Shown piece by piece: positions 4,076-21,310 of a stretch of 21,372 nt of DNA. Positions within the stretch are counted from its first letter, which is position 1. Each line of letters begins with the position of its first letter. The translations under genes and the position numbers were made by a program. The stretch is taken from the IMG/VR virus record IMGVR_UViG_3300048547_000135, positions 1 to 21,372 of that record. One strand, written 5' to 3'. Source of the stretch: a virus. The notes below the pieces were generated by a model that worked only from the letters and a program-made list of their open reading frames with translations, made no database searches and was not told where the DNA came from.

Positions 4076-5959
4076 ATGGCAGAAGAAACCACAAAGAAAA
4101 AGTTAAGTCCTGAGACTGAAGCTATTATAGATCGGCTGAAACGAGAAGGTCAGCTGACGCGTAATAGTGAAGGTAATTCTATCAAGTCAATTAAAATAAA
4201 TCTTGACAAGTTTGCTGATGCCTTTACAGCCATTCAAAAAAGTTCAGAAGATACTGCCAGAATTATGACAGAAAACTTTGTTGATGGTAATACTGAAATA
4301 CTTAAAAAGGTTGATGAATCATTAGAAGGTTTAACCGACGAACAAAAGAAAGCCGAACTTCAAAGAAGAAAGGAAGTCAAAGAAGAAGCAATTAAAAAGA
4401 AAGAGGAGACAAGAGAACAATCAATGGCTGAAAAGTCGTTAAGGGCTACTCTTATGAATGGCTTTGGTGATTTAAAGAAAGGATTCTTAGCGGTTAAAAA
4501 AGATCCGTGGGGTTCATTACTTCAGATCGGAAAGTGGGCAGTTATAATACCAATATTAGCAGGAGCAATAAAAGGTGTTCTTGATTTGATGTTTGGTGAT
4601 TCTGAGATGGCCCAGTTTTATAAAGATATCAATAATAGTGCGTTTATGAAATTTGTTAAAGATCATCCATGGGCGTCTCTTGGTATTGCTCTTACAGCTT
4701 TTGCCGGTGTTAAATGGATGAAAATGTATTTAGCAATGATGGCTGCTGCAAAAACACTTGGAGTAGGTGGTGGTACAGATGTTGTAGCAGGCGGTACTGG
4801 AAAAGGAAAAGGAAAGGGACTCAAAGATAGACTTGGAAGATTATTAAAAACAACAAAGGGTAAAGGTGGACTTGCTGGTATTGTACTTCTTACTGTTGGC
4901 GGTATAACATATGCAGTAATGGATGATGATGACGAACCTGTAAATGTTGACGAAGAAATTAAAAGAATTAGAAGAGAAAACGAAGTAAAAGAACAAGAAG
5001 TTATAAAAGGAAAAATAGACAGTTATAAAACCACCTTAGAAAGAGATAGAACAACTTTTGGTGATGTATTAACAGGAACTTTAGTTAGTGGAGGCATTGG
5101 TGCTGCAGGTGGTGCCGCTTTTGGTGGCGTAGGAGCAATTCCAGGCTTGATAGGTGGATTAATTTTTGGAGCTGTTACTGGTCTTGGTACGGTTGCGTAT
5201 GAAGCGGTTGATGATTATAGAAATGATATTGATAACATTCCTAATGAATTAGAAGCATTATTAAAGAAAGAAAAATTTAACATGGCTGATAAAACTGGTC
5301 GTAACAGACAGTTTCAATTATCAGATAAACAAAAAGAAGATTTAGTAAACGCTAACGATGCTCTTATTCAAAAAATGATAGATGGTTTAGTTGGCACAAT
5401 AGCAGGACAAGATGTAGATCTTAAAAATTTAGAAGCTGCTCTTGGCGGTGAAGTTACACGACAACGAAAAGGAAGTTCTAGAGTATTTTCCGATTATGTA
5501 ACTATGCCTGATGGTACATTAATTAAAAAATCAGAAGCTGAAAAGCAACTTGCAGATTTAAAAGAAGAAAGATTATTAAGAGAACAACAATTAATTACTT
5601 CAAGAAATATATTGAAAGCAAGGAAAGGAGAAGAGCAGGCAATACAAGAAAATGTACAAGCTGTTGAAGATAACACAACAACAGTTAATGAGAAGACTAC
5701 GGAAATAAAAGATACTCCGAAAGAAGAGGTCGATATAAAACCCAGTACAGAAGAAAGAGAAAGAAAACAAAATATTGCTGCTGGTGGATTTGCTCTTAAT
5801 ATAACAAATAACTATTATAATAAAGGTGGAGATACTGTTGTTCAGAACCAATCTGATAACAGAGTTGCATCTACAAAGAATACTGCTATTCGTGCTGATG
5901 GTGGTGGTGGCGGTTCAAGATTTGGCGGTTCATTACCATCCGGTGGCGCGATGGCATAA
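4076..5959 (+). CDS. Tape-measure-like / baseplate hub protein (gp29-type)
   Basis: 627 aa; T4 gp29, the tape measure, is 590 aa. Layout: a charged helical N terminus with a Lys/Glu-rich coiled coil (about 75-120); hydrophobic segments at about 152-174, 199-229 and 266-281; a Gly-rich hydrophobic stretch at about 334-375; more charged helix; then NITNNYYNK and a Gly-rich tail ending SLPSGGAMA. Alternating coiled coil and hydrophobic, Gly/Ala-rich segments are typical of tape-measure proteins, which fill the tail tube and set its length. It follows the gp26 frameshift region by 5 bp, the expected place for a tape measure. A weak AAGG lies 9 bp upstream. Another hub protein cannot be ruled out, since I cannot align it confidently to T4 gp29. 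Confidence 0.6.
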   Translation: MAEETTKKKLSPETEAIIDRLKREGQLTRNSEGNSIKSIKINLDKFADAFTAIQKSSEDTARIMTENFVDGNTEILKKVDESLEGLTDEQKKAELQRRKEVKEEAIKKKEETREQSMAEKSLRATLMNGFGDLKKGFLAVKKDPWGSLLQIGKWAVIIPILAGAIKGVLDLMFGDSEMAQFYKDINNSAFMKFVKDHPWASLGIALTAFAGVKWMKMYLAMMAAAKTLGVGGGTDVVAGGTGKGKGKGLKDRLGRLLKTTKGKGGLAGIVLLTVGGITYAVMDDDDEPVNVDEEIKRIRRENEVKEQEVIKGKIDSYKTTLERDRTTFGDVLTGTLVSGGIGAAGGAAFGGVGAIPGLIGGLIFGAVTGLGTVAYEAVDDYRNDIDNIPNELEALLKKEKFNMADKTGRNRQFQLSDKQKEDLVNANDALIQKMIDGLVGTIAGQDVDLKNLEAALGGEVTRQRKGSSRVFSDYVTMPDGTLIKKSEAEKQLADLKEERLLREQQLITSRNILKARKGEEQAIQENVQAVEDNTTTVNEKTTEIKDTPKEEVDIKPSTEERERKQNIAAGGFALNITNNYYNKGGDTVVQNQSDNRVASTKNTAIRADGGGGGSRFGGSLPSGGAMA

Positions 5960-6029: not shown

Positions 6030-6542
6030 TTATTCTCCTTTGAGGTAAGCAAGTACTTTCTCAGGAGTTGTTTCACCGTATGGATCTGTAGTACAATCAT
6101 CTTCAAACCCAGGTTCACTAAACATCCTTTCAACAGTACCATCGTCTACGACCATAGCATATCTCCAAGATCTTTTACCGAAACCTAAGTTATCCTTTGC
6201 GACTAACATATCCATTCCTGCTGTAAATTCGCAAGAACCATCAGGAATCAATTTAACATTTTTAATTCTCAAATCTTCAGCCCATGCATTCATTACAAAT
6301 GTATCATTACAGCTTACACAATATACTTCATCAACACCTGCTTCAGTAATTTGGTCATATAGGACATCAAATCCTGGTACCTGATTATTGGAACAAGTTG
6401 GTGTAAATGCGCCAGGTAGTGAAAATACAACTACTCTTTTACCTTTAAAATAATCGTCTGTAGTCGGGTAGGTCCAATCGAACTCACCGCTCTCTACGTT
6501 TCTGCTTCTTACTTTAAAAGTTACGTTAGGGATAGTTTTCAT
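6030..6542 (-). CDS. Peroxiredoxin (Prx5/AhpE-like redoxin)
   Basis: 170 aa. Peroxiredoxins reduce hydrogen peroxide and organic peroxides through a catalytic cysteine. The active-site motif PGAFTPTC has the PxxxTxxC pattern with Cys50 as the peroxidatic residue. A conserved Arg is available in GKRSWRYAMVVDDG (about 122-135), a stretch also diagnostic of the Prx5 subfamily. Cys75, Cys78 and Cys150 are candidate resolving cysteines. The length is full for the family and there is no signal peptide, so it should act in the cytoplasm. An AGGAAA site precedes the ATG. It follows Hsp20 on the same strand, so the pair could form a stress-protection unit transcribed late from the box at 7140-7147. 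The glutaredoxin at 20811-21026 is a possible reductant (inference). Confidence 0.9.
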   Translation of the reverse strand: MKTIPNVTFKVRSRNVESGEFDWTYPTTDDYFKGKRVVVFSLPGAFTPTCSNNQVPGFDVLYDQITEAGVDEVYCVSCNDTFVMNAWAEDLRIKNVKLIPDGSCEFTAGMDMLVAKDNLGFGKRSWRYAMVVDDGTVERMFSEPGFEDDCTTDPYGETTPEKVLAYLKGE

Positions 6543-6564
6543 AATTTAGTTTCCTATCAATAGA

Positions 6565-6585
6565 GGGAGGCCATTGCGACCTCCC
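6565..6585 (-). other. Intergenic hairpin between Hsp20 and peroxiredoxin genes
   Basis: Stem GGGAGG/CCTCCC (6 bp) with a 9-nt loop, in the 56-bp gap between the two genes. On the minus strand only a mixed TCTATT follows, so termination would be weak. It may be an attenuator or RNA-stability element that sets the ratio of the two products. Confidence 0.4.
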
Positions 6586-6598
6586 AGATTAATATTGA

Positions 6599-7051
6599 TT
6601 AACCTTTTAAGAATTCTTTCTTAGTGTTAATCTTAATTTTACGAGCCTTTTTCTCTTCAGGAATTATTCGTTCCAATGAAACAGTTAAAAGACCATTTAC
6701 GAAGCTAGCATCAATTACTTCAATATCGTCTGCAAGAGTAAAACTTCTTGTGAACTTTTTGAAGGAAATGCCACGGTGAACATAGTCTCCACCGCCGTTG
6801 AAGTAATCTCCTGCTTCATCCCATGTGGAACGAACAGTCAATACGTCTTCTTTTACTTCTATTTCTACATCGTTAATATCAAGACCTGCTAACGCAAGAT
6901 CAATAAAGAACTTTTCGTTTTTATCAGTTCTGATATTATAAGGCGGGAAGCCTTGTGATTGATGTACTTGTGGGAATTCCACCAATCTGTCGAAAACTCT
7001 ATCAAAGCCTACGGCAAAAGGGTGAAGTTGGTTTATATTTAATCCAGTCAT
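6599..7051 (-). CDS. hsp20: Small heat-shock protein, Hsp20/alpha-crystallin family
   Basis: 150 aa, IbpA-like. Small heat-shock proteins hold unfolding proteins in soluble complexes without ATP. The N terminus resembles IbpA (HPFAVGFDRVFDRL). The alpha-crystallin domain spans about residues 35-135, with YNIRTDKNEKFFIDLALAG, the EVKEDVLTV strand and the signature FVNGLLTVSLERIIPEEKK. The C terminus carries an IKI anchoring motif (IxI type). The gene has a clear AGGAG site and a TATAAATA late box about 90 bp upstream. Hsp20 genes are a recurring accessory gene in marine T4-like phages, probably aiding virion protein folding late in infection. Confidence 0.93.
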   Translation of the reverse strand: MTGLNINQLHPFAVGFDRVFDRLVEFPQVHQSQGFPPYNIRTDKNEKFFIDLALAGLDINDVEIEVKEDVLTVRSTWDEAGDYFNGGGDYVHRGISFKKFTRSFTLADDIEVIDASFVNGLLTVSLERIIPEEKKARKIKINTKKEFLKG

Positions 7052-7462: not shown

Positions 7463-7538
7463 TGGTGCCGGCACCAAGAGTCGAACTCGGGACCTACTGA
7501 TTACAAATCAGTTGCTCTACCAACTGAGCTATACCGGC
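7463..7538 (-). tRNA. tRNA-Thr (anticodon TGT)
   Basis: A full cloverleaf can be read on the minus strand. The acceptor arms are GCCGGTA and TGCCGGC (one G-T pair), the D arm begins TAGCTCAG, and the anticodon stem is CTGAT/ATCAG around TT-TGT-AA. A T-loop TTCGACT is present, the discriminator base is A, and CCA is encoded at 7465-7463. TGT reads ACA and other ACN threonine codons, useful in an AT-rich genome. Its own consensus promoter ends about 16 bp upstream. Confidence 0.95.
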
Positions 7539-7554
7539 CTAATTCTATATTTTT

Positions 7555-10645: not shown

Positions 10646-10674
10646 ATTATACAACAGTTATTTAGATTTGTCAA
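10646..10674 (-). promoter_or_regulatory. Sigma70-type promoter of the gp45 operon
   Basis: TTGACA (10674-10669), 17-bp spacer, TATAAT (10651-10646), preceded by CTA. The -35 and spacer lie inside the end of the upstream glycosyltransferase gene; the -10 ends 34 bp before gp45. Confidence 0.85.
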
Positions 10675-11527
10675 TAGGATTATAAGCTTTTTTGTTGGAG
10701 CTATTATCTGCGGTTGCAGTTACACCTAATTGACCGAGAGATCCCATGTCACCCTTAAAGATATAAGAACCAACATGATTAAGTTTCATCCAAGGACACA
10801 TCCATACTGAAAGGTCGGCTTTACGAGCCATCTTACAGAAGAAGTAATCTTCAGACAAGTACCTTCTTGACTCTGGGTCAATGACACAATCAAAGAAAGC
10901 ATGTATATCTCGAGTACCGTCAAATTGTTCGGTTCTAACATGGTCAGGTTTATATGCAAGTTCAGGATAGGCATCTCGATATTTTTCTAATGCTTCTCTT
11001 GTAATTAACATAAACCCAGTACCACCTTCGGCAACTTGAACAGGTTCTGCGAGTTTAAATTGTTTTATATCTCCAACAGGATTAAAAACAAAATCTGATG
11101 TAAATTTTTCTAGGTCAAAAGGATTCTCTTTGCCTACTCCGGATTGAGCAGCAGCTGATACCTTTTCCCAAGCAATTGTTTTCTTAGGATATGGACCACA
11201 TACGACATCGTATTTTTCAGGATCTGAAATCTGTAATGCAAGTAACGCCAAAGCATCTCTTGGATCAAATCCAATGTCTGCGTCAATAAACAATAAATGT
11301 GTACAGTCAGATCTTAAGAATTCATCTACGATATAGTTTCTTGCTCTTTGTATTAAACTCTCATTAAATAGAAAGTAATACTTCATTGGTATTTTGTGAG
11401 ATGAACATAACATACTTAAATCATTGGTTGACTTAGTATATAGTCCAGTACATTGACCACCATACATAGGTGTACCAACGAATAGTCTTTGTTTTTGTAA
11501 TTCTTCTGTTTTTACTTCAAGCTTCAT
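10658..11527 (-). CDS. GT-A type glycosyltransferase (family 2-like)
   Basis: 289 aa. The N terminus RLFVGTPMYGG is the first nucleotide-sugar strand of a GT-A fold. The metal-binding D-x-D motif is in HLLFIDADIGF (Asp82, Asp84), preceded by a QRARNYIVDEFLRSDCTH helix. An AEGGTGFMLITREAL segment is typical of the acceptor-side region, followed by EDYFFCKMARKA, which supplies the usual catalytic acidic residues (SEDYFF). The protein is cytoplasmic. Related genes occur in cyanophages and pelagiphages. Acceptor unknown: host surface polymer, virion protein or modified DNA base. Its start overlaps the DexA stop by 4 bp, so the two are co-transcribed from the promoter at 12188-12216. Confidence 0.75.
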   Translation of the reverse strand: MKLEVKTEELQKQRLFVGTPMYGGQCTGLYTKSTNDLSMLCSSHKIPMKYYFLFNESLIQRARNYIVDEFLRSDCTHLLFIDADIGFDPRDALALLALQISDPEKYDVVCGPYPKKTIAWEKVSAAAQSGVGKENPFDLEKFTSDFVFNPVGDIKQFKLAEPVQVAEGGTGFMLITREALEKYRDAYPELAYKPDHVRTEQFDGTRDIHAFFDCVIDPESRRYLSEDYFFCKMARKADLSVWMCPWMKLNHVGSYIFKGDMGSLGQLGVTATADNSSNKKAYNPIDKSK

Positions 11528-12162
11528 ACTGTGATTTGCTCCATATCGTTTTCGGCTCTTGTGATTGATTGTAGACGCATAACATCAGCCAATATGTCCC
11601 ATGCCGAATCGTGTGCTTTAAATACTGAATCCCACTTATCTTCGTTTGCACATGGAGGAAATCCATTCTTCTTAATACCAAAGTCAAACTTTGCATCAAT
11701 AAAAGTTCTTGTATCTCTAACAGTCCAATGTTTTAAGTGTGATTGTAGATGTCCTACTTTACCTTGAGACTTAAATAGTCTTTCAAGTATAACAGGATCA
11801 AATGAATTAGATCTTGACCACCAAAAATTAATCTTTGGACCGTCAATTAAAAAATCTGTAAATTGTCTTACGAACTCTTCAACAGAAAGATCTGAACTTT
11901 TTGGAGCAATATTCTTTCTTACTTCAGAATCTTGTTTTGACCAAAAGTCTAATGTACCTTTATCAACTACCCAATCAAAGTCCTTTACTTGTTGAGCTAC
12001 ATTTAATTTAAATTTCTTTGTTTTAAATATATCACCCAAATTGTATGGATCGTCTGATGTAAACTTATCCCACTGAAATACCATGACTGACATATCAATC
12101 ACAGCACAGTTGTGGACATCTTGTCCCATTGTTTCAAAGTCGATGATTAAATCGTTTCTCAT
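11524..12162 (-). CDS. dexA: DexA-like 3'-5' exonuclease (DnaQ fold)
   Basis: 212 aa; T4 DexA is 227 aa. It is a DEDD-type exonuclease. Exo I is LIIDFETMG (Asp8, Glu10), Exo II includes SFDPVIL with Asp122, and Exo III is AHDSAWDI with His184, Asp185 and Asp189, the DEDDh form. The T4-like stretches TLDFWSKQDSEVRKNIAP (T4: TIEWWKNQSPEARKNIAP) and VRDTRTFIDA (T4: QRDIRTRIEA) confirm the family. In T4 DexA contributes to host DNA degradation. It is first gene of a two-gene unit with the glycosyltransferase, under a consensus promoter. Confidence 0.9.
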   Translation of the reverse strand: MRNDLIIDFETMGQDVHNCAVIDMSVMVFQWDKFTSDDPYNLGDIFKTKKFKLNVAQQVKDFDWVVDKGTLDFWSKQDSEVRKNIAPKSSDLSVEEFVRQFTDFLIDGPKINFWWSRSNSFDPVILERLFKSQGKVGHLQSHLKHWTVRDTRTFIDAKFDFGIKKNGFPPCANEDKWDSVFKAHDSAWDILADVMRLQSITRAENDMEQITV

Positions 12163-12187
12163 AGTAATACCTTTAATTTAATTTGTT

Positions 12188-12216
12188 ATTATAACAAACA
12201 TTGCTACGGATGTCAA
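12188..12216 (-). promoter_or_regulatory. Sigma70-type promoter of dexA
   Basis: TTGACA (12216-12211), 17-bp spacer, TATAAT (12193-12188), inside the ACTATTGACA frame shared by most early promoters of the window. It sits in the 59-bp gap after the methyltransferase stop. Confidence 0.85.
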
Positions 12217-12221
12217 TAGTT

Positions 12222-13448
12222 TTATCCAAAGAATTCTTCTAAATTTGGAGTTGTATCAACACCGTTAGGATCAAGCTCTAATAATTGCTTGTGGTTGTTC
12301 TGTCTTAAATAGGTGGTATCTGATAATTCTAATTTACCTGTAAGGAATTTGGCAATCTCTGTATGTAGATCTCTTGATGTTGGTACAGGAACATTCTGTG
12401 CAATATGGTTCATCTTCTTTAAACCACCTAGCAATTCAAAATTAGGTGGGAATCCCATCATATGTAATGCTTCACGAATTGTTAATGATCGTTCTTCTGT
12501 TGGATGCATTGTGTCAACCATATTACGACCAATTACAGCATTCATATATTCACCAAAGACATGTACTGAACCATCCCATACACCTTTGCCATCAGCAAAC
12601 TTCATTATTGCGTGGTCGGAATATTTAATACCTTTTTCGTTGCCTGTCTTATGGAACCATTCGTTAGCTTCTTTCATCCAACCTTTCTTACAAACATAAT
12701 TCAGAGTTGTCTTAACATTCTCTTCAATCATAATCTCTCGAACATCACGGTTCGTTTTGGTCTTAATAAAATTGTAATAAGGTTCATCAGGAACATTCTT
12801 ATTAATAACTAAATCTTGATGTAAAGCATCTTCAGGAATCTCTTGTAAGTATTCGGTAAAATCCTTTCGGTCTTTATTATACCAATTCATTACAGGAGCG
12901 GAGTCTGACTTCCAACCAATCGCAAAGGTCCTGTCGCGTCCTTGTGGAACTCCATGGAATCTCGTTGATGTTTTATACAGGGATAAAGAATAACCCCTCT
13001 CAGCACATATTTCATACAGTCTATTCGCTACTGGACGTCCTTTGTTTGTAAACAATGCAGGAGCATTTTCAACGATGACTACCTTTGCACCAAGTTTATC
13101 AATACCATCTTGAAAGACCATATACATAAATTCGTTCTTAGCACAACCTGCACCTTTACTCTCTGTTGTTGTTCCTGTATTTAATTGAGATAGAGCAGCA
13201 CAAGGCGGAGTACCAGAAACTACATCAACTTGTTTAATTTGACCAGGCTCTGCTTCGTCAAGTTTAATATAAGGAATATCGCGTCCCATTGTATTTTGTT
13301 GATAGTTTACATATTGACTATCGTTATCTTCAAATCCACCATAAGAATAGATTGCTTCAGGTGGTTTACCAAAAGCTTTTTCTGCTCCTAGCATTTGTCC
13401 ACCAATAAGTGGAATCAGTGGTGCCCATGTTATTTCTTTTTTGTTCAT
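12222..13448 (-). CDS. DNA cytosine-5 methyltransferase
   Basis: 408 aa. It transfers a methyl group from SAM to C5 of cytosine. Motif I is divergent (IPLIGGQMLGAEKAFG, 12-27). Motif IV is SGTPPCAALS with catalytic Cys83, motif VI is VIVENAPAL (Glu127-Asn128), motif VIII is HGVPQGRDRTFAIGW (Gln169, Arg171, Arg173), motif IX is RSLTIREALHMMGFP (about 320-334) and motif X is NHIAQNVPVP (about 347-356). The target-recognition region lies at about 180-310. No restriction partner is present. The last seven residues NLEEFFG match the end of the upstream GT-B protein and resemble clamp-binding tails. The start overlaps that gene's stop by 4 bp. If phage cytosine is hydroxymethylated by the gp42-like enzyme, its substrate is a puzzle. 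Confidence 0.9.
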   Translation of the reverse strand: MNKKEITWAPLIPLIGGQMLGAEKAFGKPPEAIYSYGGFEDNDSQYVNYQQNTMGRDIPYIKLDEAEPGQIKQVDVVSGTPPCAALSQLNTGTTTESKGAGCAKNEFMYMVFQDGIDKLGAKVVIVENAPALFTNKGRPVANRLYEICAERGYSLSLYKTSTRFHGVPQGRDRTFAIGWKSDSAPVMNWYNKDRKDFTEYLQEIPEDALHQDLVINKNVPDEPYYNFIKTKTNRDVREIMIEENVKTTLNYVCKKGWMKEANEWFHKTGNEKGIKYSDHAIMKFADGKGVWDGSVHVFGEYMNAVIGRNMVDTMHPTEERSLTIREALHMMGFPPNFELLGGLKKMNHIAQNVPVPTSRDLHTEIAKFLTGKLELSDTTYLRQNNHKQLLELDPNGVDTTPNLEEFFG

Positions 13449-14704
13449 CCGAAAAAGTCCTCAAGTGTTGCAGCTGCTTTCTTTTCAAATTGTGTTACAT
13501 CAGGTGCAACATAATCATTATCCATTGCTGTCATAATTTTATTGTTTAAAAATGTACCATCGTAATATTCAGGCTTACATATTAGTTTACGCAATCCTGT
13601 AATTACAGATTCATACTCGTCCTCATTATTTAATAACCTATCCATCCTTTCTTTAAATTCAGTAGGAGTCTTAGGTCTTAAAAAATCTGGTATTGGCAAA
13701 TGCCCTTGTTCATCATAAGATGGATGTAAGAACGGTATCACACCAGCATGTACCATTTCAATATACTTTGAAGTTACCCAACCTTTTGCGATTGGAATAA
13801 TAAAAGTAAACTTAACATTATTCATTTTTGCCATTACATCATCAAGATGAATAGAGCCTTTGAATCTTGCGTCTGTTTCTGTTTTCTCATGAGTCCATTT
13901 ACCATAAATCTCAACGTCGTCAAAATCATCAAGTACCCATTCTTTTAATAAGTTATATCTTGAAGGGTTTGCTTCATTCAATATAACCATGAATGGTAAT
14001 TTACGATTCAGATTAAACTGTTCTGAATGATGATAGTTAATACAGAAACAAGTTTCCATACCTGCATATGTTGCAGATTGCTTTCTTTCGTATCTGACTT
14101 GATCTTCATAATCTTTAATAGAACTTACAGTGTATTCATAATCGTATTGACCTAAAGACACTGTTGGTAAATGAAATATGTCTCTTGACTGATTCATTAC
14201 ATATCTTGGATCATTTATAATTTCAACATAAGGAGGTTGTTCTTCATTTAACCAAATAGAAATTGGTGAAGTATAATTCTTTGTCATATCAATCACAGAT
14301 GCAGGTTTACCATCAGTGATACCTTCTTTTAAATGTTTCACTTGAGTAATTTTATCTGGAATTGTAACTGTACCAACCTGACCGACCATTAGAACTGTAT
14401 AGTCTAACTTAAATCCTTTCTGACCAAAGTAATTAAAGATATGACGATAGAAATTATCAGTACCATCATTCTTAACTCCTTTCCAAATATCAATTACATT
14501 ATTATATGGAAACAACTCCAACTCTTCAGACTCAGTTAGAGTACTGAAATCAGATCTTCCGATAATGTAAAATGTTTTGTCTGGGTTGTTATTTGCGAGT
14601 GCAATTAAAACTGTAGATGGTTCGTTGTCTCCACCAATAGGAGAGAAACGATTCCGTTTGAACTTGACCGATTTACCGATCTTTCCGAAGCCAATGTTTT
14701 TCAT
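13445..14704 (-). CDS. GT-B type glycosyltransferase, candidate DNA base glucosyltransferase
   Basis: 419 aa. The C-terminal half reads like a GT-B nucleotide-sugar domain: LPFMVILNEANPSRYNLLKE (about 240-259), FDDVEIYGKW, RFKGSIHLDDVMAKMNNVKF, FIIPIAKGWVTSKYIEMVHAGVIPFL. The order of elements parallels T4 beta-glucosyltransferase: a 'YGG...' strand, F(T/K)Gxxxxx(D/N)V(M/S), an A/F-x-I-I strand, an Arg/Lys-x-x-E-M helix, then a short strand and loop. Identity at residue level is low, so this is a structural resemblance. The N-terminal half (about 1-220) is the less conserved acceptor domain. It ends in ATLEDFFG. It is coupled by a 4-bp overlap to the C5 methyltransferase, supporting action on DNA. 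A surface-sugar transferase is the alternative. Confidence 0.65.
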   Translation of the reverse strand: MKNIGFGKIGKSVKFKRNRFSPIGGDNEPSTVLIALANNNPDKTFYIIGRSDFSTLTESEELELFPYNNVIDIWKGVKNDGTDNFYRHIFNYFGQKGFKLDYTVLMVGQVGTVTIPDKITQVKHLKEGITDGKPASVIDMTKNYTSPISIWLNEEQPPYVEIINDPRYVMNQSRDIFHLPTVSLGQYDYEYTVSSIKDYEDQVRYERKQSATYAGMETCFCINYHHSEQFNLNRKLPFMVILNEANPSRYNLLKEWVLDDFDDVEIYGKWTHEKTETDARFKGSIHLDDVMAKMNNVKFTFIIPIAKGWVTSKYIEMVHAGVIPFLHPSYDEQGHLPIPDFLRPKTPTEFKERMDRLLNNEDEYESVITGLRKLICKPEYYDGTFLNNKIMTAMDNDYVAPDVTQFEKKAAATLEDFFG

Positions 14705-14731
14705 AATATAAAATAATTCCGTTCTGTAAAT

Positions 14732-15166
14732 TTATTTATTAGAATCCACCACACGCTTTCGAAGCTCTGTGGAACTGAAGGAATGCCTTCTTCGATTATA
14801 ATGTACTGGACATAAACCTTTTCCTGTATGTTCCATATCTTTGTATTCTTCACCTACGATACGAATGTCAGGATTAATTGTAAGTATCATATCAATGATT
14901 TCTTGTTCAGTTGAAAAAGGTATTACTTCATCTACATATTTACAAGATGATACCTGTATGTATCTTTCAAAAGGTGTTTGGATAGGCTGATTCTTTGCAT
15001 CAGGACGATCTACGGTTGGGTCTGTAAGTAATCCAACAATTAAATAATCGCACATTGATTTTGCTTCTTGTAACATAACAATATGACCTGCATGAAACAG
15101 ATCAAACGTTGAACAAGTAAAGCCAACCTTTGCGCCTTCTGATAATTTGGTTCTATCAAGAAACAT
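14732..15166 (-). CDS. Cytidylyltransferase (TagD/RfaE-like nucleotidyltransferase)
   Basis: 144 aa. Enzymes of this family join CTP (or ATP) to a phospho-alcohol or phospho-sugar, for example glycerol-3-phosphate to CDP-glycerol. It has GFTCSTFDLFHAGHIVML with the HxGH signature (25-28), LIVGLLTDP (43-50), the conserved RxxxV helix region (ERYIQVSSCKYVDEVIPF) and the closing SSTELRKRV motif (131-139). The length is that of TagD. An AGGAG site precedes the start and the start overlaps the upstream gene by 11 bp. It is next to a HAD-kinase fusion and glycosyltransferases, so a pathway making a CDP-linked group is plausible. Substrate unknown. Confidence 0.85.
   Translation of the reverse strand: MFLDRTKLSEGAKVGFTCSTFDLFHAGHIVMLQEAKSMCDYLIVGLLTDPTVDRPDAKNQPIQTPFERYIQVSSCKYVDEVIPFSTEQEIIDMILTINPDIRIVGEEYKDMEHTGKGLCPVHYNRRRHSFSSTELRKRVVDSNK
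14733..14740 (-). promoter_or_regulatory. Possible late-type box before the GT-B gene
   Basis: The reverse strand reads AATAAATA, overlapping the cytidylyltransferase stop and 29 bp before the GT-B start. It fits the relaxed late consensus. It is close to the gene and in AT-rich sequence, so this is a weak call. Confidence 0.25.
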
Positions 15167-16073
15167 ATATATTCTCCTCTTTTAATAATTCCTCTACTCT
15201 AGGTGCGTATATATTATATAGTGGTGATTTATCAATTGGTAAGTAATGAATATACGCAGGAATCTTTTTTAACTTTTTAACTTCTCTCATTACTGTTGTC
15301 CATACTCGGACATCACCATTAAATCTTTCAGGTTCATAACCATTTTCGGAAAGCCATTTATAATAGATGGCATAAATGTTTTGTTCTATACACCAATACT
15401 TTCCACCCATACTACGGTTATTCTTTTTTGAACCGTACTTAGGTATTACTGAACCACCATAACCTTTCTTATTCTTGTACTTATATACACCATCCATGAT
15501 AAGTATATATGTATCTTTACAAACTGCTCTCTGAAAGAACTCAATATAACGATCATTCTTGGTATGTATTACTTGTCCTGAGTTCATACTAAAGTAAGGT
15601 TCTTTTCTCATTGTTGAAATATCAACTAAGTCTTTATAGATTGGAGCCAAACTGGATTCAACAAACTTACCCATAACACCTAATGCAGATTCATTATAGA
15701 ACACATACTTATTAAAGAAATAATGATCAAGCGGTTTAAGTAATAATACATCGTCGTCCATCATCATTGCTTTATCAATGTTAAGTACTTCGTGTACATA
15801 AGGAAAGACCAACCATTTAATTGCTACTCCGTATGCATTTAGAATCTTAAACAAGTATTCTTCATCAAAGAAATGTTTTGTCTTCTCAATCATTTCCGAA
15901 GCATAATGTATTTCAATCTTATCTGATATTGTTTCTGTATTATATGTCTTATTCCTATCATCTAAGATAACATTCAAACGTGTATATGTATCTTCACCAT
16001 ACACATTCCAATATTTAAGTAAGCTTTCAATCCTCTCAATATTATTACTTACTACGAATATATTATTCTGCAT
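15156..16073 (-). CDS. Putative glycosyltransferase (GT-A, DxD type)
   Basis: 305 aa. IDKAMMMDDDVLLLKPLDHYF (about 99-119) carries a DDD metal-binding motif followed by a 'xLLLKPLD' strand, as in GT8-like and similar GT-A enzymes that use UDP- or other nucleotide sugars. An EPYFSMNSGQVIHT segment (about 157-171) matches the 'N-S-G' acceptor region of GT8 proteins. The C-terminal part has many aromatic and basic residues. There is no membrane segment. It overlaps both neighbours by 11 bp (HAD-kinase upstream, cytidylyltransferase downstream), so it is part of a tightly coupled unit. Donor and acceptor cannot be read from the sequence. Confidence 0.6.
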   Translation of the reverse strand: MQNNIFVVSNNIERIESLLKYWNVYGEDTYTRLNVILDDRNKTYNTETISDKIEIHYASEMIEKTKHFFDEEYLFKILNAYGVAIKWLVFPYVHEVLNIDKAMMMDDDVLLLKPLDHYFFNKYVFYNESALGVMGKFVESSLAPIYKDLVDISTMRKEPYFSMNSGQVIHTKNDRYIEFFQRAVCKDTYILIMDGVYKYKNKKGYGGSVIPKYGSKKNNRSMGGKYWCIEQNIYAIYYKWLSENGYEPERFNGDVRVWTTVMREVKKLKKIPAYIHYLPIDKSPLYNIYAPRVEELLKEENIYVS

Positions 16074-17103
16074 AATTAATCATATCCAATATATCGTTAA
16101 CACATTGTAATATAAAATCTTTATCATCGTGGTATTTGTAAACTCGTATTACTTCAGCAGCAACAAGAGTAAGCAGTTCATATTTGTCTATATGATGGTT
16201 ATATGCTAACAGTGTATTAATAGCAAGATCTTGTTGATGTCGAGAATAATGATTAATCATCAAACTTGCGATAAACTTTGCTATGTCAAGTTCACGACAA
16301 CCAAATACATTAGGGATAGGATCAATTAAGAACAATTTATCTTCATTAAACAGCATGTTCTTAACACCAAAATCTCCATGACAATAACCGTATTCTAATT
16401 CGATCTTTGCCATCTTTTCAATCACTTCATTAAATGCTTCAAGGTTTGCCAATTGAACATGACTTACAATTCTTGCGATGTAATCGTCAAAGGTTAGAAA
16501 CTTAGTTTGTTTAATAGAATCAAAAGCATCAAGAGATTCTTGAATCATTGCCAATGCTTTATAAGGTTTGTCATTGAAGTAGTTTGGATCATTAGGAATG
16601 TAATCCATTGTAAGTGTATCACCTACAACTCTATGAATTGTTGGAGTGTTTACAATATTACCAGTTTCTTCAAACCACTTTGCTGCTTCATGAGCATTTC
16701 TTGCTGTCTTATGTACTAAGGCACCATCAGTATAGATATCAGAACCTGAGAGACCACCTTCGAGTTCTCTTATATCTGTTTCTATAAAATCTTCAGGAGT
16801 AATACCTTTGTCGTCAACATAGTATGCTGCAAGTGGTTTATTAAAAGATAGAGCATGGTATTTTACATGATGTTTCTTTAACCAAGATTCAATTTGTGGA
16901 CCATACTTATCTGATGCTTCTTCTCTACTCCTACAAGAAATAGAACCACGAGCAGTAAAGATATCAATGATCCAACCAGATTCATATAACTTATTGCACT
17001 TTTCTATTAACTCAAGATTAGGCTTTGCGTTCTCCCAATCACGATTAGAAGTAAACGCAAGTGTATCATCAAAGTCGAGTACAATTCTTTTATGTAGAGA
17101 CAT
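16063..17103 (-). CDS. HAD phosphatase-like domain fused to an aminoglycoside/choline-kinase-like domain
   Basis: 346 aa, two domains. Residues 1-108 form a HAD domain: RIVLDFDDTLAF (nucleophile Asp10, Asp12), a DIFTARG motif II region (48-53), Lys89 and YYVDDKG (Asp97, Asp98). This resembles small HAD proteins of sugar-phosphate and capsule pathways. Residues about 113-340 form an APH/choline-kinase fold: a Gly-rich loop GGLSGSDIYTDG with Lys132 in VHKTA, the catalytic loop CHGDFGVKNML (His242, Asp244, Asn249) and the metal-binding FLIDPIP (Asp261). The kinase domain would phosphorylate a small hydroxyl compound. Fusion to a phosphatase fold and coupling to a cytidylyltransferase suggest a small-molecule activation pathway. 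Substrate unknown. Confidence 0.8.
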   Translation of the reverse strand: MSLHKRIVLDFDDTLAFTSNRDWENAKPNLELIEKCNKLYESGWIIDIFTARGSISCRSREEASDKYGPQIESWLKKHHVKYHALSFNKPLAAYYVDDKGITPEDFIETDIRELEGGLSGSDIYTDGALVHKTARNAHEAAKWFEETGNIVNTPTIHRVVGDTLTMDYIPNDPNYFNDKPYKALAMIQESLDAFDSIKQTKFLTFDDYIARIVSHVQLANLEAFNEVIEKMAKIELEYGYCHGDFGVKNMLFNEDKLFLIDPIPNVFGCRELDIAKFIASLMINHYSRHQQDLAINTLLAYNHHIDKYELLTLVAAEVIRVYKYHDDKDFILQCVNDILDMINYAE

Positions 17104-20096: not shown

Positions 20097-20510
20097 TTAT
20101 TCTCCTTTCAATGTTGGTAGGATACCGTGATTACCTTCGTGAGATGGAGCTGTCCATCCTTCAGGTTTCATTAGATCAGGTAATCCTAATGGGTTTGGCC
20201 TTCCTTCCTTTACTCCAGGTTCTTTGGCCATATTTGCTTTAAGAACTTCGTCCCAAGCTTTATAAGGATCGACTCCGAAGGCATCAAGAGTACCGATTGC
20301 CACTACACAAAGGTCAACTAAACCATCTACGATTTCTTCGGAGTCGATAACTTTTTGGGCTGATCTTGTTTCTTCAAGTTCTTCTTGTAGGAAGTCAACT
20401 CGAAAACGCAAGAACGCCTTCAACTGATTTATATCTGCTGTCTGCATCCAATCATGTGTTTTATATTTGGCTTGCATTTCATTAATGTCTTTTACCCAGT
20501 CTTTACTCAT
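20097..20510 (-). CDS. mazG: MazG-like nucleotide pyrophosphohydrolase
   Basis: 137 aa from the ATG at 20510. This start is chosen over an upstream ATG at 20549 because AAGGA lies 7 bp before it and it overlaps the cytochrome gene by only 8 bp. All-alpha NTP pyrophosphatase features are FLQEELEETR (Glu43, Glu44, Glu46, Glu47) and SEEIVDGLVDLCVVAIGTLD (Glu59, Asp62, Asp66), the EExxE...ExxD metal site, followed by AFGVDPYKAWDEVLKANMAK. The C terminus is Pro/Gly-rich. Phage MazG proteins may alter (p)ppGpp or clear nucleotides. T4 dCTPase gp56 belongs to the same broad superfamily, so a dCTPase role in the cytosine-modification scheme is worth considering. Confidence 0.85.
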   Translation of the reverse strand: MSKDWVKDINEMQAKYKTHDWMQTADINQLKAFLRFRVDFLQEELEETRSAQKVIDSEEIVDGLVDLCVVAIGTLDAFGVDPYKAWDEVLKANMAKEPGVKEGRPNPLGLPDLMKPEGWTAPSHEGNHGILPTLKGE

Positions 20511-20814
20511 TTGGATATCCTTGTGAAATATATACACCGATAGCACCAATTTGTCCTTCGGTTAAACCTTTTGCTGTTCCCCACATCAACATAGATTGAG
20601 GACCAACTTGTTCTCCTGCTTTATATTTTAATAACTTACCAATAATATCATCAGCAGATTGTCCTTGTAATTTAGGACCTATACCACCTTGTCCTTGTGG
20701 TCCATGACAGGCAGCACAAGTATTCATAATTGGTCTGATATCAGCAAAACGATCTTCAGCCATTGCGACTGATGTCATTCCTAATAGAGCAGTTGTTAAT
20801 AAAACGTTCTTCAT
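20503..20814 (-). CDS. Secreted class I c-type cytochrome (c553/c4-like)
   Basis: 103 aa. A Sec signal peptide MKNVLLTTALLGMTSVAMA with cleavage after Ala19 leaves about 84 residues for the periplasm. The haem-binding CAACH is at 33-37, preceded by FADIRPIMNTC and followed by GPQGQGGIGPKLQGQSA, the usual class I layout. The axial Met is probably Met75 or Met77 in GPQSMLMWGTAKGLT. The closing helix is EGQIGAIGVYISQGYP. It is a complete, apparently functional electron carrier. It overlaps the glutaredoxin stop by 4 bp and the MazG-like start by 8 bp, so it is integral to the operon. Phage cytochromes are uncommon; it likely supports host electron flow during infection (inference). Maturation would use the host haem-ligation machinery. 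Confidence 0.92.
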   Translation of the reverse strand: MKNVLLTTALLGMTSVAMAEDRFADIRPIMNTCAACHGPQGQGGIGPKLQGQSADDIIGKLLKYKAGEQVGPQSMLMWGTAKGLTEGQIGAIGVYISQGYPNE

Positions 20815-21026
20815 AGTAATTCCCTTAATTGGTCGAAACCACCGATCTTTTCTTCGTCTTTAATAATCTGAGGAAAAGTTCTTGCGGTTGGAAAAATTTC
20901 AAAAAATTCGTCTTGAGAATAATCAAGACCTAAATGCATGTACTGATATTCAGCACCTTTAGATTCACAAAGTTGTTTTGCCATTTTACAATAAGCGCAA
21001 TTGTCTTTACCGTAAATCTTTATCAT
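20811..21026 (-). CDS. Glutaredoxin
   Basis: 71 aa. Dithiol active site Cys10-Ala-Tyr-Cys13 in DNCAYCKMAK, cis-Pro motif TFPQI (Pro52) and the GGFDQL glutathione-binding turn (62-67) are all present. Length is normal for phage glutaredoxins such as NrdC-type proteins. It would donate electrons to ribonucleotide reductase or reduce protein disulfides, possibly the peroxiredoxin at 6030-6542. Overlaps the upstream gene by 4 bp (ATGA) and the cytochrome start by 4 bp. Confidence 0.92.
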   Translation of the reverse strand: MIKIYGKDNCAYCKMAKQLCESKGAEYQYMHLGLDYSQDEFFEIFPTARTFPQIIKDEEKIGGFDQLRELL

Positions 21027-21310
21027 ACTAGTTTTAGTCCACCACTATCTGGTAGAGCTATCCCTGTTGTTGCTTCAAGTACCTGCTTTTTCAACTCGTC
21101 TTGTGGTTCAGCCACGAACATAACGTGTTGTTCAGATACAGCAATTGGTTTTCTTGAGGCATAAGGTACGAAAGGAACCATTCCAATTTTACCTTCACCT
21201 GCTGGTACTAACAAGATTCCATCTGTTAATGTATAGAATCCTTTATCATATACCACTTTTGCTACAACCTCTTCTCCGGTTGATAGTCTTACAATTTGTA
21301 CATCGCTCAT
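21023..21310 (-). CDS. Small conserved-type phage protein, LSm-like beta protein
   Basis: 95 aa. The opening VQIVRLSTGEEVVAKVVYDK followed by FYTLTDGILLVPAGEGKIGM reads as a short-stranded beta barrel of the LSm-like type. I recall similar proteins in marine T4-like phages, annotated as hypothetical. The C-terminal half (EPQDELKKQVLEATTGIALP) is helical and then loose. First gene after the promoter at 21335-21363, coupled to glutaredoxin by ATGA. Function unknown; RNA or DNA binding is only suggested by the predicted fold. Confidence 0.7.
   Translation of the reverse strand: MSDVQIVRLSTGEEVVAKVVYDKGFYTLTDGILLVPAGEGKIGMVPFVPYASRKPIAVSEQHVMFVAEPQDELKKQVLEATTGIALPDSGGLKLV

Follow-up and report, generated by a model that had tools for sequence, protein, structure and literature searches.

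The gene under study, cytC, lies on the minus strand at positions 20,503–20,814 of the window, which is the whole stretch of DNA that was analysed (21,372 bases, the entire virus record). It starts with ATG and encodes a predicted exported class I c-type cytochrome of 103 amino acids. The neighbouring operon genes are on the same strand. The first one visible encodes a 95-residue phage protein matching phrog_527 (21,023–21,310), which was used as the synteny anchor, and it is followed by the genes for a 71-residue glutaredoxin upstream of cytC (20,811–21,026; Pfam, E 3e-9) and a 137-residue MazG/PRA-PH-like pyrophosphohydrolase downstream of it (20,097–20,510; Pfam PRA-PH, E 8e-10; phrog_671, E 4e-22). 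Glutaredoxin is a recurrent neighbour of phage cytC. The glutaredoxin stop and the cytC start overlap by 4 bp (ATGA, 20,811–20,814, minus strand), and the cytC stop and the MazG start by 8 bp (ATGAGTAA, 20,503–20,510, minus strand; the empty site reads TTATGAGTAAAGAT). The two overlaps form the upstream and downstream edges of the cassette discussed below.

Elsewhere, the window encodes the clamp loader gp44, the sliding clamp gp45, the tail-tube cap gp54, the head closure protein gp4, and a tail tube protein, as well as thymidylate synthase and dCMP deaminase. By this gene content, the window is a fragment of a T4-like phage. A peroxiredoxin gene (6030–6542) adjoins the gene of an IbpA-like small heat-shock protein (the pair spanning 6030–7051), and homologues were seen in other cytC phages. 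A tRNA-Thr gene (7463–7541) had ~91% identity to its counterpart in Phage C48C1, and at the DNA level only tRNA stretches of the window had near matches among deposited phages. The block at 10,658–17,103 holds genes resembling glycosyltransferases, a cytidylyltransferase, a kinase, and a Dcm-like methyltransferase, and probably serves surface or DNA modification.

The protein begins with MKNVLLTTALLGMTSVAMA, followed after the predicted cleavage point by EDRFADIRPIMNTCAACHGPQG. The first 19 residues (20,758–20,814, minus strand) are lysine-led, hydrophobic, and end in AMA; a Sec signal peptide was predicted here solely from hydropathy and the AxA site. The haem attachment motif CAACH occupies residues 33–37 (20,704–20,718, minus strand), and Met77 (20,584–20,586, minus strand) is, as deduced from its position, the candidate sixth ligand of the haem iron. 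Residues C33, C36, H37, and M77 did not vary across the 34 phage and cellular sequences that were aligned. The spacing from the first haem cysteine to the methionine was 44 residues in all complete, distinct phage versions examined, or 45 where a version had one additional loop residue. An earlier note, made from the sequence of this DNA, had listed the signal peptide, the CAACH motif, the candidate methionine, and the 4- and 8-bp overlaps, and all of these were confirmed, the signal peptide on the basis just given.

In profile searches, cytC scored 30.7 bits against Pfam Cytochrom_C (PF00034; E 8e-7), above the curated cut-off of 21.3, and it also matched Pfam Cytochrome_CBB3 (E 3e-6). The assignment to the PF00034 class was based on this score together with a CXXCH motif near the mature N-terminus, a distal methionine, and the fold. 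Two narrower identities were considered. The score against the NCBIfam cytochrome c550 model (NF045773) was 21.8 bits, below its cut-off of 125, and cytochrome c4 was rejected, as it needs two haem domains and cytC has one CXXCH in 103 residues.

An AlphaFold2 model built with 34 sequences had a mean pLDDT of 86.6, with values of at least 90 at 75 of the 103 residues; an earlier model from 22 sequences (pLDDT 73) had no Foldseek hit with E below 0.001. The best solved match of the final model was Thioalkalivibrio cytochrome c546/556 (8yts; Z 12.7, rmsd 1.9 over 80 residues), followed by Vibrio parahaemolyticus c554 (2zzs; Z 11.9), a Colwellia cytochrome (Z 11.5), and the cytochrome c4 chain of the Pseudomonas bc1-cbb3 supercomplex (Z 11.1). 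High Z scores can arise by chance for small helical proteins, and the match is credited because the sequence profile, the haem motif, and the fold all agree. The c546/556 and c554 proteins, Pseudomonas nautica c552 (1cno), and Desulfovibrio c553 (1c53, 1dvh) share with cytC the monohaem domain of ~80 residues, the CXXCH motif, and the distal methionine, and they fall in the same-fold range when compared with the model (Z 11–13, rmsd 1.7–3.0). They differ from it in sequence (25–37% identity), the phage side having a QGQGG-GP loop and a GYPNE-type tail. Each domain of cytochrome c4 (6q2u, 8smr, 1etp), a component of the bc1-cbb3 supercomplex, likewise has the fold of cytC, but c4 consists of two haem domains in ~180–190 residues, whereas cytC has a single domain with a single haem motif. 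The earlier note had made its reading depend on a cellular homologue that acts as an electron carrier; in the modelled structure, cytC is indeed closest to small monohaem electron carriers.

Relatives of cytC were searched for in IMG/VR with the family alignment, and 84 stretches were found to encode them, of which the best 80 were retained. The run of glutaredoxin, cytC, and MazG, together with further neighbours from the window, was kept in ~40 contigs with T4-like synteny. Two long relatives (89 and 108 kb) were read whole: both have replication genes beside cytC, and the 108-kb contig also encodes a major capsid protein and a terminase. Contigs with cytC also carry virion and replication genes, which speaks against contamination with cellular DNA, and contamination or an assembly chimera was rejected on the recurrent synteny. 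The earlier note would have been undermined if the gene had been absent from related phages and the assembly chimeric; many related phages carry it, and signs of chimerism were not seen. With its phage surroundings, its occurrence in related phages, and its relatives among cellular redox proteins, cytC has the features of a phage auxiliary gene.

The rarity of c-type cytochromes in phages, which the earlier note had given as background, was borne out. The window protein had no match at E 1e-5, and two divergent family members had none at E 0.01, in 50,697 deposited phage records. PHROGs contains no family for cytC, and a BFVD structure search, for which the first, weaker model was the query, returned no cytochrome match.

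Over 279 pairs drawn from 26 distinct phage cores, dN/dS had a median of 0.20 and a maximum of 0.44. The gene is under purifying selection. By its sequence features, cytC is thus a phage-encoded, apparently exported, and selected monohaem cytochrome c of the carrier type. At the same time, it is optional. With the 95-residue neighbour as anchor, and counting contigs that extend 1 kb or more downstream, cytC was present in 45 contigs and absent from 20. In most of the contigs lacking it (L214 and others), glutaredoxin is joined directly to MazG through an ATGA overlap, TTATGAGTAAAGAT, and in the window one ATGA is found at either edge of the inserted gene. When presence and absence were mapped on the tree of the neighbouring proteins, seven changes were counted, six of them forced by well-supported branches, a count that phage-phage recombination could have inflated. 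Close siblings manage without cytC, so these phages as a group cannot depend on it, a point that goes beyond the earlier note.

The slot is also refilled. In four contigs (L197, L218, L219, L257), the place between glutaredoxin and MazG is occupied by a diverged cytochrome (~148 residues), which is anchored in the membrane at its N-terminus and has a cysteine pair of the CTGQCY type; in three others (L235, L249, L254), an anchored cytochrome directly follows MazG, and in other phages anchored cytochromes are found at quite different places of the genome. Judged from these arrangements, cytC is a cassette that phages acquire, lose, and exchange as a whole. A passenger without selected function, or a piece of contaminating cellular DNA, would explain why many close siblings lack the gene, but it is highly improbable given a dN/dS of ~0.2, haem ligands kept across very divergent phages, and the refilling of the same slot by the anchored version. 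The statement in the earlier note that the gene is not recent debris is upheld by the same dN/dS value, the 84 IMG/VR stretches, and the ~40 syntenic contigs.

The N-terminus is the variable part of the family. Besides the signal peptide of the window protein and the membrane anchors, a probable lipobox (LTGC) was seen in the L182 cytochrome, and the N-terminally extended L036/L040 group has a signal peptide as well. Every complete phage version has an apparent export signal of one of these kinds (signal peptide, membrane anchor, or probable lipobox). It appears that the N-terminus varies freely while the haem domain is placed outside the cytoplasm in all complete versions. In L036, L040, L043, and L157, an odd conserved insert, HMLDGPIHLQEWSVF, lies between the signal peptide and the haem domain. 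The anchored cytochromes of L176, L180, L183–L188, and L197 have a common linker with a CTGECY-like cysteine pair and an EYV-x-GT motif.

Genes for electron-transport and haem proteins were found linked to cytochrome c in other phages. Phage pseudoazurin is encoded in eight contigs (L215/L401, L402, L403, L404, L405, and L406–L408). In L401, L402, and L405 (about 5001–5905), glutaredoxin is followed first by a pseudoazurin that has a signal peptide and then by a membrane-anchored cytochrome c. The L215/L401 pseudoazurin scored 126.6 bits against TIGR02375, above the equivalog cut-off of 109.85. Pseudoazurins and small cytochromes c can act as alternative periplasmic carriers, and for this reason nothing speaks more strongly for cytC as a carrier than this pairing. 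An exported redox sensor, a haem or iron store, or a surface-exclusion protein that merely borrows the cytochrome fold is very unlikely: the exported location and the additional cysteine pair of the anchored versions (CTGECY) would suit such a protein, as would the haem oxygenase and Fe-S assembly-like genes of one phage, but the methionine ligand and the pseudoazurin partner indicate electron transfer, and cytC has no regulatory domain attached.

The densest cluster is in L406 (4150–6703), where genes for a cytochrome c, an EF-hand protein, a pseudoazurin, a ferredoxin-like protein, and an alternative oxidase (AOX) stand within 2.6 kb, close to a contig end. The contig (IMGVR_UViG_3300020360_000085, 250 kb) encodes a relative of T4-like terminases (35% identity). 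The AOX matched PF01786 with 228 bits (E 1e-67; cut-off 22.7), and L406 is the only contig in which AOX was found together with phage cytochrome c. Oxidase routes comparable to this pairing have been proposed for infected Prochlorococcus (PMC5082946). The presence of cytC, pseudoazurin, and the non-pumping AOX on one contig might suggest that the phage carrier redirects or slows the electron flow of the host as a decoy or shunt, for example to a non-pumping route, by which redox balance is altered and energy yield is not raised. Such a diversion is quite unlikely, as the haem ligands and the fold are all conserved, as in a competent carrier, and AOX occurs on a single contig.

Other linked genes belong to central metabolism and haem supply. 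Isocitrate lyase is encoded 2–4 genes upstream of cytC in L036 (4087–5331; NF011645, 583 bits, above cut-off) and its kin L157, L043, and L159. In L144 and L161, cytC is flanked by genes for a helicase and a primase, and the phage encodes a family A polymerase. The phage of L131, which is the 89-kb relative of the window, encodes a 5-aminolevulinate synthase (TIGR01821, 553 bits against a cut-off of 338), an IscA-family protein, haem oxygenase, and serine hydroxymethyltransferase (L312: 2648–4802; L313: 14,502–19,728), as well as an IscU-like gene (79,925–80,368 of its contig) with a score below the equivalog cut-off. A general linkage of cytC to the synthase gene, alaS, was not supported: 12 alaS contigs had no cytC and 16 cytC or sibling contigs had no alaS, these mostly being fragments in which absence carries little weight, and the two genes were seen together only in the L131 phage. 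Phage 5-aminolevulinate synthase (vAlaS) has been described in T4-like aquatic phages as supplying haem precursors (PMC11480375). Those phages are T4-like, and the L131 phage shares alaS with them; the available part of that report describes no phage cytochrome, and alaS and cytC are not generally linked.

Pseudoazurins and small cytochromes c can also donate electrons to periplasmic cytochrome c peroxidases. In a defence against oxidative stress, cytC would feed such a peroxidase of the host and, alongside the phage peroxiredoxin and glutaredoxin, remove peroxide. This is unlikely on the present evidence. The window does encode a peroxiredoxin (6030–6542) and a glutaredoxin, a related phage has a Redoxin-family protein, and peroxidase donation by pseudoazurins and small cytochromes c is established, but glutaredoxin and peroxiredoxin work in the cytoplasm, no peroxidase gene adjoins cytC in the neighbourhoods examined, and the linkage to AOX and isocitrate lyase suits respiration better.

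The nearest cellular relatives, located by whole-genome sweeps, were cytochromes of one gammaproteobacterial order (G205, G581, G590, and kin), with 50–55% identity to phage cytC over the haem domain. Against the phage profile they scored up to 90 bits, where phage members reach ~180 bits; no score above 64 bits was obtained in sweeps of 289 genomes of an alphaproteobacterial class, 200 of the Thiobacillus order, and 398 from across the phylum. These cytochromes resemble the phage family in having soluble and lipoprotein versions. Unlike phage cytC, their genes are cellular and stand at loci of their own, outside enzyme operons. An electron partner was sought in the cellular gene neighbourhoods, in which the closest genes stood alone or beside a second cytochrome.

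In the cytochrome tree, which was built from few columns, all phage sequences could be placed on one side of one branch, separate from the cellular sequences sampled, with weak support (77), L172 and L174 loosely. The tree is compatible with a single origin of the phage cytochromes. The capsid and terminase of a close window relative were nearest to Sinorhizobium phages phiM12/phiN3 (60–65% identity), and gp44 of the window was nearest to Methylophilales phage Melnitz (55% identity). As the affinities of capsid and terminase, gp44, and cytC disagree, no host was assigned; the marine proteobacterial host assumed in the earlier note is plausible only.

Taken with the neighbouring genes, cytC is probably an auxiliary electron carrier that props up periplasmic respiration of the infected host, and as such a respiratory counterpart of the plastocyanin encoded by cyanophages. 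The protein would be exported through the host Sec system and loaded with haem by the host cytochrome c maturation machinery. Inspection by eye of the window and the two long relatives revealed no ccm genes, so the host would have to provide maturation. In the periplasm, cytC would shuttle single electrons from the quinol-oxidising side of the host chain (a bc1-type complex or periplasmic dehydrogenases) to a terminal acceptor, such as a cbb3 or aa3 oxidase or possibly a peroxidase. A carrier supplied by the phage could in this way maintain respiratory electron flow and ATP supply through replication. We infer the haem loading, expression, and partner of cytC, and its benefit to the phage, be it in energy or in redox balance. 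The periplasmic electron-transport role had been suggested in the earlier note; as a suggestion it stands, and it gains independent support from the pseudoazurin linkage and, once, from AOX. Counted in its favour are the fold, the ligands, selection, synteny, the export signals, the swapping of the slot, and the pseudoazurin, AOX, isocitrate lyase, and haem-gene neighbours. Counted against it are the siblings without cytC, the haem-synthesis link that is not general, and the fact that a soluble carrier could equally serve a peroxidase or act as a decoy.

More tentatively, and as a possibility that we would not yet favour, diverse T4-like phages of respiring bacteria may carry an exchangeable periplasmic electron-transport module that rewires host respiration, the heterotrophic counterpart of the photosynthesis genes of cyanophages. 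Its parts would be cytochrome c (soluble, lipoprotein, or membrane-anchored), pseudoazurin, and sometimes AOX and haem or iron-cofactor genes. Cyanophages carry genes for plastocyanin (petE) and PTOX, which are thought to sustain electron flow in infection. The likeness to cytC lies in a small electron carrier and an oxidase encoded by phages. In contrast, petE encodes a copper protein for a photosynthetic host, whereas cytC is a haem protein, sometimes accompanied by pseudoazurin, of phages with no known cyanobacterial host. A general model of electron flow in infected cyanobacteria is available (PMC5082946).

No description of the phage cytC family was found in searches of an open-access library of papers. 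A viral cbb3 oxidase was reported from reads (PMC3474794), viral electron-transport and glyoxylate-shunt reads have been reported (PMC4053976), and SoxD has been reported in viruses (PMC8190135). As far as the available parts of these papers go, they resemble the present work in hinting at respiratory or cytochrome genes within virus fractions, and they differ from it in that they concern reads or enzyme subunits and do not describe a family of c-type carriers in its operon setting. The phages studied in PMC8115048 were stated to show no cytochrome or quinone carriers. The closest earlier idea to phage cytC is cyanophage plastocyanin.

Photosynthetic electron carriers are known from cyanophages; to our knowledge, evidence that phages of respiring bacteria manipulate the respiratory chain has so far been thin. 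With a phage cytochrome c family that is both widespread and under selection, that comes with interchangeable anchoring and that has pseudoazurin as a partner, the idea that viruses control respiration can be tested directly. Such control could affect the flow of oxygen and carbon through infected bacteria.
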